Assembly (NCBI RefSeq): GCF_023715655.1
Contig: NZ_JAMBON010000019.1
Span: 1 to 58,685, forward strand
From: Oceanobacillus luteolus
GTDB taxonomy: Bacteria; Bacillota; Bacilli; Bacillales; Amphibacillaceae
Reading direction: 5' to 3'
Length of the DNA: 58,685 nt
A program made the position numbers and the translations under genes. Positions 21,881 to 26,480 of this stretch are shown here, one piece after another; the stretch's first letter is position 1, and each line of letters begins with the position of its first letter. The notes beneath the pieces were generated by a model. The model was not told where the DNA came from, made no database searches, and worked only from the letters and a program-made list of their open reading frames with translations.

Positions 21881-23485
21881 ATGATTATCAATCACAATAT
21901 TTCTGCTCTTAACGCACATCGCCAATTAGGAGCAAACCAAGGTGCAGTACAAAATTCATTGGAGAAGCTTTCTTCAGGTCTTCGTATTAACAAAGCTGGA
22001 GATGACGCTGCAGGTTTAGCAATTTCTGAGAAAATGCGTGGACAAATTCGTGGGTTGGAAATGGCCGGAAAAAACGCTCAAGACGGTATTTCTCTAATCC
22101 AAACTGCTGAAGGTGCATTAAATGAAACACATGCAATTCTTCAAAGAATGCGAGAACTAACAGTTCAAGCTGGTAACACTGGAACACAAGAACCAGAAGA
22201 TTTAAAAGCTCTTCAAGATGAAATGGAAGCATTAATAGAAGAACTAGGCGGAACAGATTCTAGTAAAGGTATCTCTGACCGCACTCAATTTAATGGTAAA
22301 AACCTTTTGGACGGTACTTTTTCAGGAACATTCCAAATTGGTGCTAATGATGAACAGCAATTAGATGTAGAAATTGGTGATATGAGTGCAGCAACTCTAG
22401 GGGTTGCTAATATTGTATTTACTTCAGGTACAGTAGAAGGTGGAGATTTAGCGGCTAATGTAACATTTGATGCTACTATTGATCTAATAGATACTGCAAT
22501 CAATACAGTTTCTACAGAACGTTCAAAATTAGGTGCAGTTCAAAACCGGCTAGAGCACACAATCAACAACTTAGGTGCTTCTCAAGAAAACCTAACTGCT
22601 GCAGAATCACGTATCCGTGACGTTGATTATGACTTAGCTGCTTAATTGCAGGAATAGTCACAGTCGTCCTAACTGGTAACGGTTAGAGATTATGACCGGG
22701 TGAATTGCTGGAAACCCCTTAGAGCTTGTCTTACCACAACGCAACTGGAAACAGTAAGCGTGAAGGTTAAAAAAAGATGAGATTGGGCAATCAGCAGCCG
22801 AGCTCCTGTGAGGAAACTCTGGAGAAGGTTCAACGACTAGAATATACCACCTAATGCACACGCAATGGTGATGAAATTCGTAGGTGAATGATAGAGCCGC
22901 AAATCTATCAAAATCCAAAGCTCCCGGCCCCTACTTAAATCGGTAGGGTGAAGATATAGTCTGGTCATTTATGAAAGTAAATGTTCGCACGATGGCGAAA
23001 GAAATGATGGAGTTCACTAAGAACAACATCCTTTCACAAGCGGCACAATCTATGTTAGCTCAATCTCAAACATATACTCAAGGAGTATTACAACTCTTAC
23101 AGTAATTTTTGAGCAGGGCGTCTAATCTGGTAACGGATTAGAGGATAACTGGGTGAATTGCTGGAAGTTCCTAAAGTGTTTTGTACCACAACGTAGCTGG
23201 AAACGGCAGGCGTGAAGGTTTGAAAAACAAAACAATGCTACAATGGATAATCAGCAGCCAAGCGCCCACGGTGAAAGCCTGGCGAAGGTTCAACGACTAG
23301 AATGTACTGCCTACGAGCTTAGCTCATGGCAATGAGATTCGTAGGGTGATCAGAATTAGGTCATTCGAAGTGCCCAGCCCCTTATAAATTTAAGGGTGAA
23401 GATATAGTCTATTCTACGATTGAAAGACGTAGCGGCGAAGCAAGCTAACCAAATGCCTCAAGGGGTATTACAGTTATTACAATAA
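21881..23485 (+). CDS. hag: Flagellin 1, split gene with two group I introns
   Basis: Exons are 21881-22627, 22992-23060 and 23441-23485. Joined they give 286 residues, a normal flagellin of the hag type. The N-terminal D0/D1 begins [17 protein letters not shown]; the C-terminal D1/D0 has [44 protein letters not shown] and [14 protein letters not shown]. Each of the two conserved C-terminal blocks falls in a separate exon, and all junctions lie on codon boundaries. Without splicing, translation stops after DYDLAA. The ATG at 21881 follows AGGGAGG. If only the first intron is removed, the frame ends at 23105 with an alternative tail of equal length. Flagellin 2 has an identical first 69 residues. 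Confidence 0.9.
22628..22991 (+). ncRNA. Group I intron 1 of flagellin 1 (364 nt)
   Basis: The conserved group I core is present in order: P (AATTGCTGGAAA, 22703-22714), Q (AATCAGCAGC, 22789-22798), R (GTTCAACGACTA near 22829-22840) and S (AAGATATAGTC, 22951-22961). R and S form P7 (GACTA with TAGTC). P1 can be drawn as UGAU|UAU (22624-22630) with AUAGUCA (22654-22660), with U22627-G22657 as the splice-site wobble. The intron ends in G22991, right before ATGGCGAAAG. An in-frame TAA lies five codons inside. It has no ORF. A nearly identical intron sits at the same site in flagellin 2. Confidence 0.93.
23061..23105 (+). other. In-frame alternative flagellin C-terminus inside intron 2
   Basis: Reading on from exon 2 into the unspliced intron gives 14 codons, [14 protein letters not shown], then TAA. 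The spliced exon 3 also encodes 14 codons, [14 protein letters not shown]. The last eight residues are the same but use partly different codons (CAAGGAGTATTA versus CAAGGGGTATTA). The element sits in the P1 loop, upstream of the internal guide sequence. Confidence 0.9.
23061..23440 (+). ncRNA. Group I intron 2 of flagellin 1 (380 nt)
   Basis: Core elements: P at 23156-23166, Q at 23249-23258, R near 23288-23301, S at 23399-23409. P2 is TCTAATC/GGATTAGA. P1 uses GCU|C (23058-23061) with GGGC (23116-23119), with U23060-G23117 as wobble. P9 (CTACG/CGTAG) is followed by eight bases to the terminal G23440, the same spacing as in the other introns. The first 45 bases encode, in frame, [14 protein letters not shown] and a stop, a flagellin tail. 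It contains no endonuclease gene. Confidence 0.92.
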
Positions 23486-23590: not shown

Positions 23591-25498
23591 ATGATTATCA
23601 ATCACAACATTTCAGCTCTTAACGCACACCGCCAATTAGGAGCAAACCAAGGTGCGGTACAAAACTCTTTGGAGAAGCTTTCTTCAGGTCTCCGTATTAA
23701 CAAAGCAGGAGATGACGCTGCAGGTCTTGCAATTTCTGAAAAAATGCGTGGACAAATTCGTGGATTAGAAATGGCGGGTAAAAACGCTCAAGACGGTAAA
23801 CTAGAAATGCCGCTCTAAGTAGTAATACTTAGATGAAAACTCCGTGAATTCGGTGGAACCCCAAACCAGACGAGCAGTGTGGATGGTGGGCAATACCGAG
23901 CCAAGCCTAATGAATTGGTTTAAAGTAGTTAGGAAGGTGTAACGATCAGGTGGTGAGGAACCAGACCAATAAACCACCCACGAGCGCGGAGCATCCCAAT
24001 GGGATGAAGATATGATCTGAACTTTATGGAAACATAAAGAAGTAATGGATTAAACGCCATTACGATAACAAATTTGATTTCTTTAATTCAAACTGCTGAA
24101 GGTGCTTTAAATGAAACTCATTCTATTCTTCAAAGAATGCGGGAATTAACTGTCCAAGCTGGTAATACTGGTACACAAGAGCCGGAAGATTTACAAGCAA
24201 TACAGGACGAGCTTGATTCATTAGTTGAAGAACTGGGTGGTATCTCTGACAAAAGTCCGGGAATCTCAGATAGAACACAATTTAACGGAAAAGATCTCTT
24301 AACTGGTGATTTTGCAGAAGATGGTGGTGCAAAGTTAACATTTCAAATCGGAGCTAATGCTGAACAACAATTAGAAGTTAATATTGAAAATATGTCTGCT
24401 GGTGCTCTATTTGGAGTAGCAGGTGCTGAGGGGACAGCTACAGCTGCAGAAGTTAAAGCAGTAATAGATGTAACAGCTTTTGTGGATGGAAATGGAGCTA
24501 CGGTAGAAAAAGCATTTGATAATCAATTGAAATTAATAGATGCAGCTATTACAAAAGTATCTAATCAACGCTCTGCATTAGGTGCTGTACAAAACCGTCT
24601 AGACCATACGATAAATAACTTAGGTGCTTCTCAAGAGAACCTAACTGCTGCAGAATCACGTATTCGTGACGTTGATTATGACTCAGCTGCTTAAAGCAGT
24701 GACAGTCACAGTCGTCCTAACTGGTAACGGTTAGTGATTACGATCGGGTGAATTGCTGGAAACCCCTTATAGCTTGTCTTACCACAACGCAGCTGGAAAC
24801 GGCAGACGTGATGGTTTGAAAAAAGATAAGATTGGGCAATCAGCAGCCGAGCTCCTGTGAGGAAACTCTGGAGAAGGTTCAACGACTAGAATATACCACC
24901 TAATGCAAATGCGATGGTGATGAAATTCGTAGGTGTATGATAGAGCCGCAATATCTATCAGAATCCGAAGATCCCGGCCCCTACTAGAAAACTAGAGGGT
25001 GAAGATATAGTCTGGTCATTTATGAAAGTAAATGTTCGCACGATGGCGAAAGAAATGATGGAGTTCACTAAGAACAACATCCTTTCACAAGCGGCACAAT
25101 CTATGTTAGCTCAATTTGAACAGATTGCAGCATAAACTGTTCACGGGCGTCCGTTGAAGTAATTTAACGGACTATGACTGGGTGAATTGCTGGGAAATCC
25201 TTAGAGCTTCATCGACCACAACGTGGCTGGAAACGGCGAGCGTGAAGGTTTGAAAACATGAAGATTGGATAATCAGCAGCGAAGCTCCTGTAGAGAAATC
25301 TTGGAGAACGTTCAACGACTAGGATATACCATCTAAGGCAAATGCTAAGATGATGAAATCCGTAGGGTGTTTAATACATTCGAAGTGCCCAGCCCCTTAA
25401 ACAAAGGGTGAAGATATAGTCTATTCTGTGAATCGAAAGACACAGCGGCAAAGCAAGCCAACCAAATGCCTCAAGGGGTATTACAATTACTTCAATAA
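23591..25498 (+). CDS. hag: Flagellin 2, split gene with three group I introns
   Basis: Exons are 23591-23797, 24077-24676, 25043-25111 and 25454-25498; joined they encode 306 residues. Exon 1 gives the same 69 residues as flagellin 1, ending KNAQDG, and exon 2 resumes [13 protein letters not shown]. The variable centre is longer than in flagellin 1 and differs strongly. The C-terminal blocks [12 protein letters not shown] and [14 protein letters not shown] are in exons 3 and 4. All junctions lie between codons. Retention of any intron stops translation within five to seven codons, so unlike gene 1 this gene needs all splices for an intact tail. Start ATG 23591 follows GGAGG. Confidence 0.9.
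23798..24076 (+). ncRNA. Group I intron 1 of flagellin 2 (279 nt, different subtype)
   Basis: Core elements differ from the other four introns: P AATTCGGTGGAA (23847-23858), Q AATACCGAGC (from 23892), R GTAACGATCA (23939-23948) and S AAGATATGATC (24007-24017), with GATCA/TGATC as P7. P1 pairs CGGU (23794-23797) with GCCG (23809-23812), including the U-G wobble at the splice site. It ends in G24076. Reading through yields GKLEMPL and a stop. It interrupts the conserved N-terminal D1 region; flagellin 1 has no intron here. Confidence 0.9.
24677..25042 (+). ncRNA. Group I intron 2 of flagellin 2 (366 nt)
   Basis: Same insertion point and nearly the same sequence as intron 1 of flagellin 1. P 24751-24762, Q 24838-24847, R 24876-24890, S 25002-25012. 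P1 is UGAU|U (24673-24677) with AGUCA (24704-24708), wobble U24676-G24705. The P9 hairpin CATTTA/TAAATG and the last bases TTCGCACG are identical to those of the sister intron. An in-frame TAA follows five codons. Confidence 0.93.
25112..25453 (+). ncRNA. Group I intron 3 of flagellin 2 (342 nt)
   Basis: Same site as intron 2 of flagellin 1 but clearly diverged. P 25185-25197, Q 25271-25280, R near 25311-25324, S 25411-25421. P1 is GCU|C (25109-25112) with GGGC (25145-25148), plus a distal stem TGAACAG/CTGTTCA (25117-25143). P9 is CTGTG/CACAG, then CGGCAAAG to the terminal G25453. Read-through gives QFEQIAA and a stop, which does not resemble a flagellin tail. Confidence 0.92.
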
Positions 25499-25562: not shown

Positions 25563-26480
25563 TTACGGAGTGAAACAAATTCTAGTCAACTCACTATAGT
25601 TTAAGCCTGTCGTTTCTTTCAGAAAGTGCAATTTAGACAGGTTGTTTTTGGATAAAGTAATCTGATAGCTTTTGGATTCCTTTCTAGTTGGGTTTATTAA
25701 TGGAAAATAATTAGAGTAAAACAAACCTTTTTTGTACATATTAACCCACTCATCAAGATTTTTTAGGAAAAAGTTAATCTCTCTTGTTGGATGTGTGAGA
25801 ATAATAGATGATGGCAAGTAAATGGTCGTTCTTCTTGGTTGAACATGAGTAGTATACTTATAGTATGGTACTATTTTTCTATGCATACTCTCATGGAGAT
25901 AAGGTGTTACAAGATAAAGGAAATAATATATTTGAAATTGGTTATAGAGAATAAGGCGATTTTGTTTATCTAGGCGGAACTGTAATTTATATTTTTTCTT
26001 TAACAAATCAGACAGCTGTATATTTTCGCAAGGAGTAAAACTATCGGTTGAAAGAATAATTTTTTGAGGTTTGTTATGATTCAGTTTTAAATGTCCATCA
26101 TCCATATACCACCAAGCAAGTGATTCTTTAGTGAACCACTCATTTAATAGTTTAAATGGAACTATTTTAGTGCCAGAAGGGTACCATTGTGATCTTAAAT
26201 AAGTAATGATACTTGAAGTTCTTGATTGAACATAATATGAGAAGCTGTAACCCTCTTTAAGTCTGGAATCTTTATAAGATTTATATTTCGGAGGATTTAA
26301 AGGTAAAGAATTATTCATTTGTTCATAGGAGTAGTTCGCCCAACTATAATCTCTAGAAGTATGTGTGAACTGAAAGCGTGGTTTTCTTCCTTTTTGAATT
26401 GTAATACACCCATCTCCAAGTAACTTCCCTATTATTTTTGCTTTAAAAGAAGTATTTGTAAGAAGCCAAGATTTCTCCAT
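25563..26480 (-). CDS. Free-standing LAGLIDADG homing endonuclease
   Basis: 305 residues with two LAGLIDADG-type helices: KIIGKLLGDGCI (Asp near 23) and ESLAWWYMDDGHL (Asp near 127-128), each followed by strand-rich halves. It fits the PF03161-like group of endonucleases found in introns and as free genes. The last 45 residues (SYQITLSKNNLSKLHFL, then GLNYSELTR) look like an added ribbon-helix-helix DNA-binding unit. It lies antisense and convergent to the flagellin genes, whose introns have no ORFs, so it may drive their mobility in trans. A GGGAGGGG ribosome site lies 10 bases before the ATG. Confidence 0.88.
   Translation of the reverse strand: MEKSWLLTNTSFKAKIIGKLLGDGCITIQKGRKPRFQFTHTSRDYSWANYSYEQMNNSLPLNPPKYKSYKDSRLKEGYSFSYYVQSRTSSIITYLRSQWYPSGTKIVPFKLLNEWFTKESLAWWYMDDGHLKLNHNKPQKIILSTDSFTPCENIQLSDLLKKKYKLQFRLDKQNRLILYNQFQIYYFLYLVTPYLHESMHRKIVPYYKYTTHVQPRRTTIYLPSSIILTHPTREINFFLKNLDEWVNMYKKGLFYSNYFPLINPTRKESKSYQITLSKNNLSKLHFLKETTGLNYSELTRICFTP

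Follow-up and report, generated by a model that had tools for sequence, protein, structure and literature searches.

Intron 2 of the flagellin 1 gene of Oceanobacillus luteolus begins with a second copy of the flagellin C-terminus, read in frame from exon 2, and this in-intron tail is very likely a selected, translated fail-safe ending of flagellin. A protein of the same length is read whether the intron is kept or removed, and both endings are conserved in amino acid sequence among many genera of the Bacilli. The DNA analysed, referred to here as the window, is a stretch of 58,685 nucleotides.

Organization of the flagellin genes

Two neighbouring flagellin genes of the window contain a total of five group I introns, as revealed by an Rfam search (family RF00028, gathering score cut-off 50). 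The features of flagellin 1 are as follows:

21881..22627 (+), exon 1, from the open reading frame and the joined translation; the Pfam Flagellin_C domain begins inside it
22628..22991 (+), intron 1, group I, after ..RIRDVD; RF00028 match at 22646-22983, 75.6 bits
22628..22645 (+), in-frame reading of intron 1 by translation, YDLAA-stop, resembling an ssrA degron
22992..23060 (+), exon 2, 23 codons, by translation
23058..23121 (+), predicted P1 hairpin, GCU^C (23058-23061) with the internal guide GGGC
23061..23440 (+), intron 2, group I, 380 nt; RF00028 match at 23097-23432, 75.3 bits
23061..23105 (+), in-intron flagellin tail, 14 residues and a stop, by in-frame translation
23441..23485 (+), exon 3, the alternative tail of 14 residues and a stop, by translation

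Those of flagellin 2 are:

23591..23797 (+), exon 1a, by translation
23798..24076 (+), first intron, group I; Rfam match at 23788-24039, 85 bits
24077..24676 (+), exon 1b, by translation
24677..25042 (+), intron at the RIRDVD site; Rfam match at 24691-25034, 62.9 bits
24677..24694 (+), unspliced reading at the RIRDVD site by translation, YDSAA-stop
25043..25111 (+), exon 2, by translation
25112..25453 (+), intron at the C-terminal site, without a tail; Rfam match at 25116-25445, 67.5 bits
25112..25135 (+), unspliced reading at the C-terminal site by translation, QFEQIAA-stop
25454..25498 (+), exon 3, by translation

Intron 1 of flagellin 1 is preceded by a U at its 5' splice site and its last base is G. 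Exon 2 ends in ..TTAGCT at position 23060 and intron 2 also has a final G; together with the covariance model match and the pairing of the splice-site U with a G of the guide, these are the marks of a group I intron. A sixth match to the family lies elsewhere in the genome (contig C129:32487-32752 on the minus strand, locus L002, 79.6 bits). Just past flagellin 2 there is a free-standing gene for a homing endonuclease of the LAGLIDADG_2 type (25563-26480, minus strand; Pfam PF03161, E 2.5e-31), which may mobilise the flagellin introns in trans; homologues accompany 16 of the 117 flagellin loci listed from named genomes (E 1e-8). The window also contains a match to BsrG (RF01412, 16037-16292, plus strand, 84.2 bits against a cut-off of 55), which we take to be the RNA of a type I toxin-antitoxin pair.

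The two readings of flagellin 1

The spliced gene specifies a protein of 286 amino acids. When intron 1 is removed and intron 2 is kept, the in-intron tail takes the place of the exon-3 tail and the product again has 286 residues. The original prediction of alternative C-termini of equal length is exact in its coordinates, and translation gives the five residue differences that it described between the two 14-residue endings. Over the last nine codons, stop included, the two tails differ at five of 27 bases, all of them synonymous. The reading with intron 2 retained matches Pfam Flagellin_C over positions 51-86 of 86, that is to the end of the model. A chance resemblance was rejected: the motif GVLQLL[QRK]-stop occurs three times in the six frames of the 58.7-kb window, once in the in-intron tail and once in each of the two exon-3 tails. 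As had also been claimed, flagellin 2 has no such backup: its unspliced reading at the C-terminal site ends in QFEQIAA and matches only positions 51-78 of the Flagellin_C model.

Distribution of the in-intron tail

With intron 2, tail included, as the query, 46 of the 98 relatives searched gave matches. The in-frame tail is kept in 26 of the 30 loci fetched, the other four being a flagellin remnant (G006), a broken copy (G004), a tail-less intron (G088) and a match to intron 1 (G017). A broken frame in close relatives would have spoken against the original prediction; what was found is a frame kept in these 26 loci and far outside the genus. The remnant in G006 has stops inside the tail, exon 2 is broken in G004, and in a further copy (G003) the intron is truncated and the frame changes upstream; all three look like dying copies.

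For a wider census the query was the intron core only, the tail being excluded, and the search covered 397 genomes from the order and 398 from the class. Matches, some of them at other sites, were found in 156 and 71 genomes, respectively. Among the matches listed, an in-frame tail, always of 14 residues, is present in 105 of 110 introns at the C-terminal site, a set chosen from matches whose query range and score pointed to this site and in which weak relatives are under-sampled. The set derives from 105 distinct sites in L154-L270, less L268 (the G003 locus, fetched by choice), leaving 104 of which 101 are tailed. To these were added four loci with variant hallmarks (L189, L204, L239 and L242), all of which have the tail, and two that lack it, flagellin 2 of the window and the G006 remnant. 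Left outside were a scrambled copy (L221), a copy at a contig edge (L255), two matches to intron 1 (L206 and L210) and two introns in other genes (L269 and L270). The classifier accepts tails with ends of the form V/I-L-x-L/I/M-L/I/M; those read include QSVLQLL, QAVLQLL, NGVLQLL or similar. The five tail-less introns are flagellin 2 of the window (FEQIAA), G478 (FEQVA), G467 (LLVA), G088, which shows no resemblance, and the remnant in G006. Since flagellin 2 of the window and three further introns do without it, the tail is not indispensable.

A scan of named genomes for the tail pattern revealed at least 117 stretches in Bacillus and the genera split off from it, Geobacillus, Anoxybacillus, Sporosarcina, Exiguobacterium, Paenibacillus, Brevibacillus and one Clostridia MAG. 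The pattern itself requires tail residues, and these loci were left out of the census and of the main dN/dS estimates. Two intronless flagellins (L083, around 3951; L150, around 7698) end in a 13-letter sequence that is the commonest type of in-intron tail, and which serves in these proteins as the sole C-terminus. The arrangement is common to the Bacilli and extends well beyond the genus. The recent spread of a single sequence was considered and ruled out by the near-saturated synonymous differences, described below, and by matches in many genera. A search of phage sequences returned 193 records matching the query in part, none over 80% or more of its length, and the best 20 of the 193 match parts of the intron. 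Searching the PDB gave 79 flagellin sequences at E 0.001 and nothing relevant to two tails.

Selection on both tails

Length was examined in a mixed set of pattern-selected and other loci, which was used only for this purpose, for the distance from the stop to the guide and for position profiles. In this set, pattern-selected loci included, all 189 in-intron tails and all 181 exon-3 tails have 14 residues, and in the in-intron tails the residues V, L, Q, L and L are nearly invariant while third codon positions are free. For loci not chosen by pattern, 111 distinct tails gave pS 0.720, pN 0.174 and dN/dS 0.08, and 75 exon-3 tails from the same set gave 0.656, 0.087 and 0.06; the ratios are rough, as synonymous sites are near saturation. 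The set derives in part from a query containing the tail. Between 55 disjoint nearest pairs of tails there are 134 synonymous and 74 non-synonymous differences (p 9e-29), a non-synonymous share of 36% compared with a neutral expectation of 73%; the share for exon 3 is 21% (37 pairs).

The two tails of a gene might resemble one another through gene conversion. This was rejected: across 115 pairs the synonymous difference between tail and exon 3 is 0.774 within a gene and 0.790 when partners are shuffled between genes, with 125 of 1000 shuffles as low, so synonymous sites are no closer inside a gene than across genes. The proteins are closer within a gene (0.110 as against 0.147 shuffled; 0 of 1000 as low), and the lineage-specific last residues of tail and exon 3 correspond in nearly all of the 115 genes (R/R in 89, Q/Q in 18, G/G in 4, mixed in 4). 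These counts are not independent, because of shared ancestry, and part of the likeness is due to that ancestry. A tree test of parallel change, made at two positions, had at either of them only four independent pairs with support, too small a number for a proper test; none went in the opposite direction (p 0.125). Tail and exon 3 seem, from these comparisons, to be held to the same constraints without copying one another.

A tail that was always spliced out would decay, as would exon 3 if splicing never took place; since both persist, both C-terminal forms of flagellin are very probably produced. This bears on the proposal that the intron either always or never splices, only one form being useful and the other tail being kept passively. 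We regard it as highly improbable, with dN/dS below 0.1 for both tails and, in two loci, a splice-site change that is matched by the guide, as splicing needs (see the next section). The notion that the mobile element arrived with a duplicate of the host 3' end, a copy that is now useless, draws on fungal mitochondrial mobile elements, some of which are described as bearing duplicated C-termini (PMC3630166, in the part available to us), and on the LAGLIDADG endonuclease gene that adjoins the flagellins of the window. A duplicate brought in by the intron may be the origin of the tail. As an account of its maintenance the proposal is scarcely credible: both copies are under purifying selection, and with the synonymous sites of tail and exon 3 close to saturation (pS 0.77) an unused copy would have decayed.

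The tail as part of the predicted P1

The tail had been placed in the P1 region of the ribozyme, and it does lie within the predicted P1 hairpin. The extension stem and loop of the predicted P1 are made up of the tail plus bases 3' of its stop, with the opening codons of the tail pairing with bases beyond the stop. Of 124 sites, 121 have the splice-site pairing GCU^C with GGGC and two have UCU^C with GGGA; no guide was found at the remaining one. The two exceptions (L197 and L199) represent a compensatory change. Among 101 distinct pairs of P1 extension arms, the predicted pairing energy with the arm's own partner is -6.5 kcal/mol, compared with -3.7 kcal/mol for shuffled partners, and none of 200 shuffles did as well. 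In 186 of 189 sites, 7-16 bases separate the stop of the tail from the guide that follows it; no guide was found in the other three. On these folds the tail is both coding sequence and P1 stem, and a ribosome terminating at the tail stop would cover or melt P1, making translation of the tail and splicing momentarily exclusive.

Such a structure raises the question of whether the tail is retained for the RNA only, its coding capacity being incidental. The extended, co-varying arms are what this proposal would lead one to expect, but the constant length and nearly constant residues described above, with third positions free, are not, and three tail-less introns (L188, L205 and the C-terminal-site intron of flagellin 2 of the window) are still predicted to fold a P1 hairpin. 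We consider an explanation by RNA structure only very improbable.

A probable fail-safe ending

The account that we prefer is that the tail protects against failed splicing. If intron 2 is still in place when a ribosome comes to the end of exon 2, the ribosome would run on into P1 and, in reading through the tail, would complete a flagellin of full length whose C-terminal D0 end is functional. It would halt a few bases ahead of the internal guide (at the 7-16 bases given above). Once it has left, P1 could refold and the intron splice, and subsequent ribosomes would use exon 3. One gene would in this way give two C-terminal forms of equal length, their ratio depending on how translation and splicing compete in speed, and the benefit of making both would be protection from truncated flagellin. 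Protection of this kind was one of the two purposes suggested in the original prediction, and it is now well supported, with frame, length and amino acids kept, synonymous sites near saturation, and exon 3 conserved as well. Direct support exists for the two readings, for the conservation of frame and length, for the purifying selection on both tails, for the predicted P1 with its co-varying arms and for the compensatory change at the splice site.

Apart from the tail-less introns, two observations weigh on the other side. In 34 of 124 loci with an intron at the C-terminal site, intron 1 shares the stretch with it, and flagellin 1 of the window is among these copies. As intron 2 is reached only after the removal of intron 1, the fail-safe would work less often in such genes. 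In addition, a passage citing Hayakawa and Ishizuka 2012 states that flagellin intron activity is temperature-dependent and promotes motility when warm (PMC4853749). If the unspliced flagellin is fully functional at the C-terminal site, motility should not depend on splicing there, which counts against the fail-safe account.

The same report favours a version of the second suggested purpose, in which the ribozyme responds to temperature or some other signal, and the resulting ratio of C-termini changes filament, FliS or export properties; the temperature-dependent activity is given there for flagellin introns of thermophilic Firmicutes (PMC4853749, citing passage). The tails also differ consistently: 88 of 115 genes have S as the first variable residue of the tail and A as that of exon 3, and in 74 of 115 the fourth is M, T or L in the tail as against Q in exon 3. 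On the other hand, the first variable residue is A in both tails in 26 of the 115 genes, and the differing residues sit in the P1 stem, where RNA pairing may account for them. A regulated switch of this sort is possible, and we think it rather unlikely.

Intron 1 and readings ending in Ala-Ala

Intron 1 interrupts the gene 37 residues before the end of flagellin, too far for a short copy to complete the protein, and the unspliced reading of this intron has a different character. At the RIRDVD site, 84 of 88 distinct introns give readings ending in -AA, 59 of them exactly in YALAA; among the 39 not found by pattern the numbers are 36 and 16. The two in the window read YDLAA (flagellin 1) and YDSAA (flagellin 2, without the Leu). 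As a set, these readings show the C-terminal Ala-Ala with upstream Leu and Tyr of an ssrA-type degron. In the five-codon readings the last codon is GCT (38), GCA (18), GCC (15), GCG (8) or GTA (1). Eight readings are one codon longer and all keep the frame, while the length of the spacer 3' of the stop changes by any number of bases, only five of 34 departures being in threes. The Ala codons of intron 1 form a small predicted hairpin with bases past the stop, the second base of the last codon being paired in 62 of 75 folds, and these codons could also be under an RNA constraint.

At a third site of insertion in flagellin genes, after AML, seen in other classes of the phylum, all 16 distinct introns give readings ending in -AA, preceded by varied residues (EGLAA, DEMAA, EVRWAA and others). 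All 16 predicted folds leave the last of the Ala codons unpaired, and 14 of the 16 introns use GCA there, many being close kin from one order. Group I introns in other genes served as controls (23 loci). They provided 17 clear readings, none ending in -AA and four ending in a single Ala, most of the introns being at one site of one gene and so non-independent. The gene in question is presumably that for ribonucleotide reductase. Of the remaining controls, L323 and L269 were ambiguous, though not -AA, and L317, L330, L332 and L002 gave no reading.

The E. coli ssrA tag ends in YALAA, and the E. coli ClpXP protease is described as degrading GFP-YALAA and not GFP-LAA (PMC7652416, in the text available to us). 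The genome from which the window comes has a tmRNA gene, with the tag GKNENYSLAAA, and a ClpX zinc-binding domain. All 17 tmRNA tags read from relatives end in AA, ARAGORN having read none at 12 of 29 loci; a tmRNA match was absent from one of 30 genomes. By analogy with ssrA, a YxLAA ending would route the useless fragment produced from intron 1 to ClpXP for destruction.

The pattern looks like one in which the intron finishes the protein if few residues are missing and condemns it if many are. We think it reasonably probable that flagellin introns in general render unspliced translation harmless, either by completing the protein (at the C-terminal site, mostly in the Bacilli) or by appending a putative ClpXP degron (YALAA at RIRDVD, x-A-A at AML). 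Two exceptions were encountered: the unspliced reading of the first, extra intron of flagellin 2 stops after 75 residues with KLEMPL and is neither tail nor degron, and the C-terminal-site reading in G088 has nothing degron-like.

Comparison with known systems

The closest system is that of the flagellin introns of thermophilic Bacillus and Geobacillus described by Hayakawa and Ishizuka (2009, 2012; known to us through citations), which involve the same gene and the same class of intron. Geobacillus and Parageobacillus loci (L038 and L133) have the same tailed intron at the C-terminal site. The passages of a review and of a citing article that deal with this work (PMC3984707, PMC4853749) make no mention of a second tail or of -AA readings. 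Among the titles and opening lines of abstracts listed in our literature search, none dealt with this tail or with a degron in a group I intron of natural origin; the two original papers being known through citations, this does not establish absence from print.

Early in-frame stops in bacterial group I introns have been viewed as sparing the ribozyme from ribosomes (PMC3984707, relevant section). The tail and degron readings likewise end in an early in-frame stop, and differ in that the residues ahead of the stop are themselves conserved; no control intron (0 of 17) ends in -AA. In Allomyces atp6 and in Glomus atp6, atp9, cox2 and nad3, endonuclease elements with a duplicated C-terminus have been reported, and like intron 2 they carry a second copy of the end of the host protein. 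In these fungal elements an endonuclease is encoded, and the inserted end is substituted for the native end or added to it, with no spliced alternative (PMC3630166). Intron 2, unlike them, would be an ORF-less ribozyme that gives both ends from one transcript; no plus-strand ORF of 40 or more amino acids is present within 23106-23440, and the endonuclease gene lies outside the intron. An IStron is a group I intron joined to an insertion sequence, with a transposase in the element. Alternative splice sites are mentioned for IStrons in the pertinent passage of PMC4853749, and they too are bacterial group I introns with more than one protein outcome. The 380-nt intron 2 is without a transposase ORF, and its second outcome would come from non-splicing. 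As to the degron, the ssrA tag of tmRNA and the alanine tails of RqcH are both read by ClpXP, according to the sections seen of PMC7652416 and PMC8012679. The intron 1 readings end alike, in YALAA or x-A-A; the tmRNA and RqcH systems add their tag, whereas in the flagellin introns it is encoded in the intron.

Implications

One reason given for the small number of introns in bacterial protein genes is that transcription and translation are coupled (PMC3984707). A harmless unspliced reading is a testable answer to this scarcity. If the account is true, readings that repair or destroy the product would explain the persistence of introns in flagellin genes, which are among the most heavily translated, in cells in which ribosomes chase the polymerase. 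A gene with an intron at the C-terminal site only would be annotated automatically as a complete, intron-free flagellin, and such introns are easily overlooked. The account also predicts that two C-terminal forms of flagellin would be made in many relatives of Bacillus.
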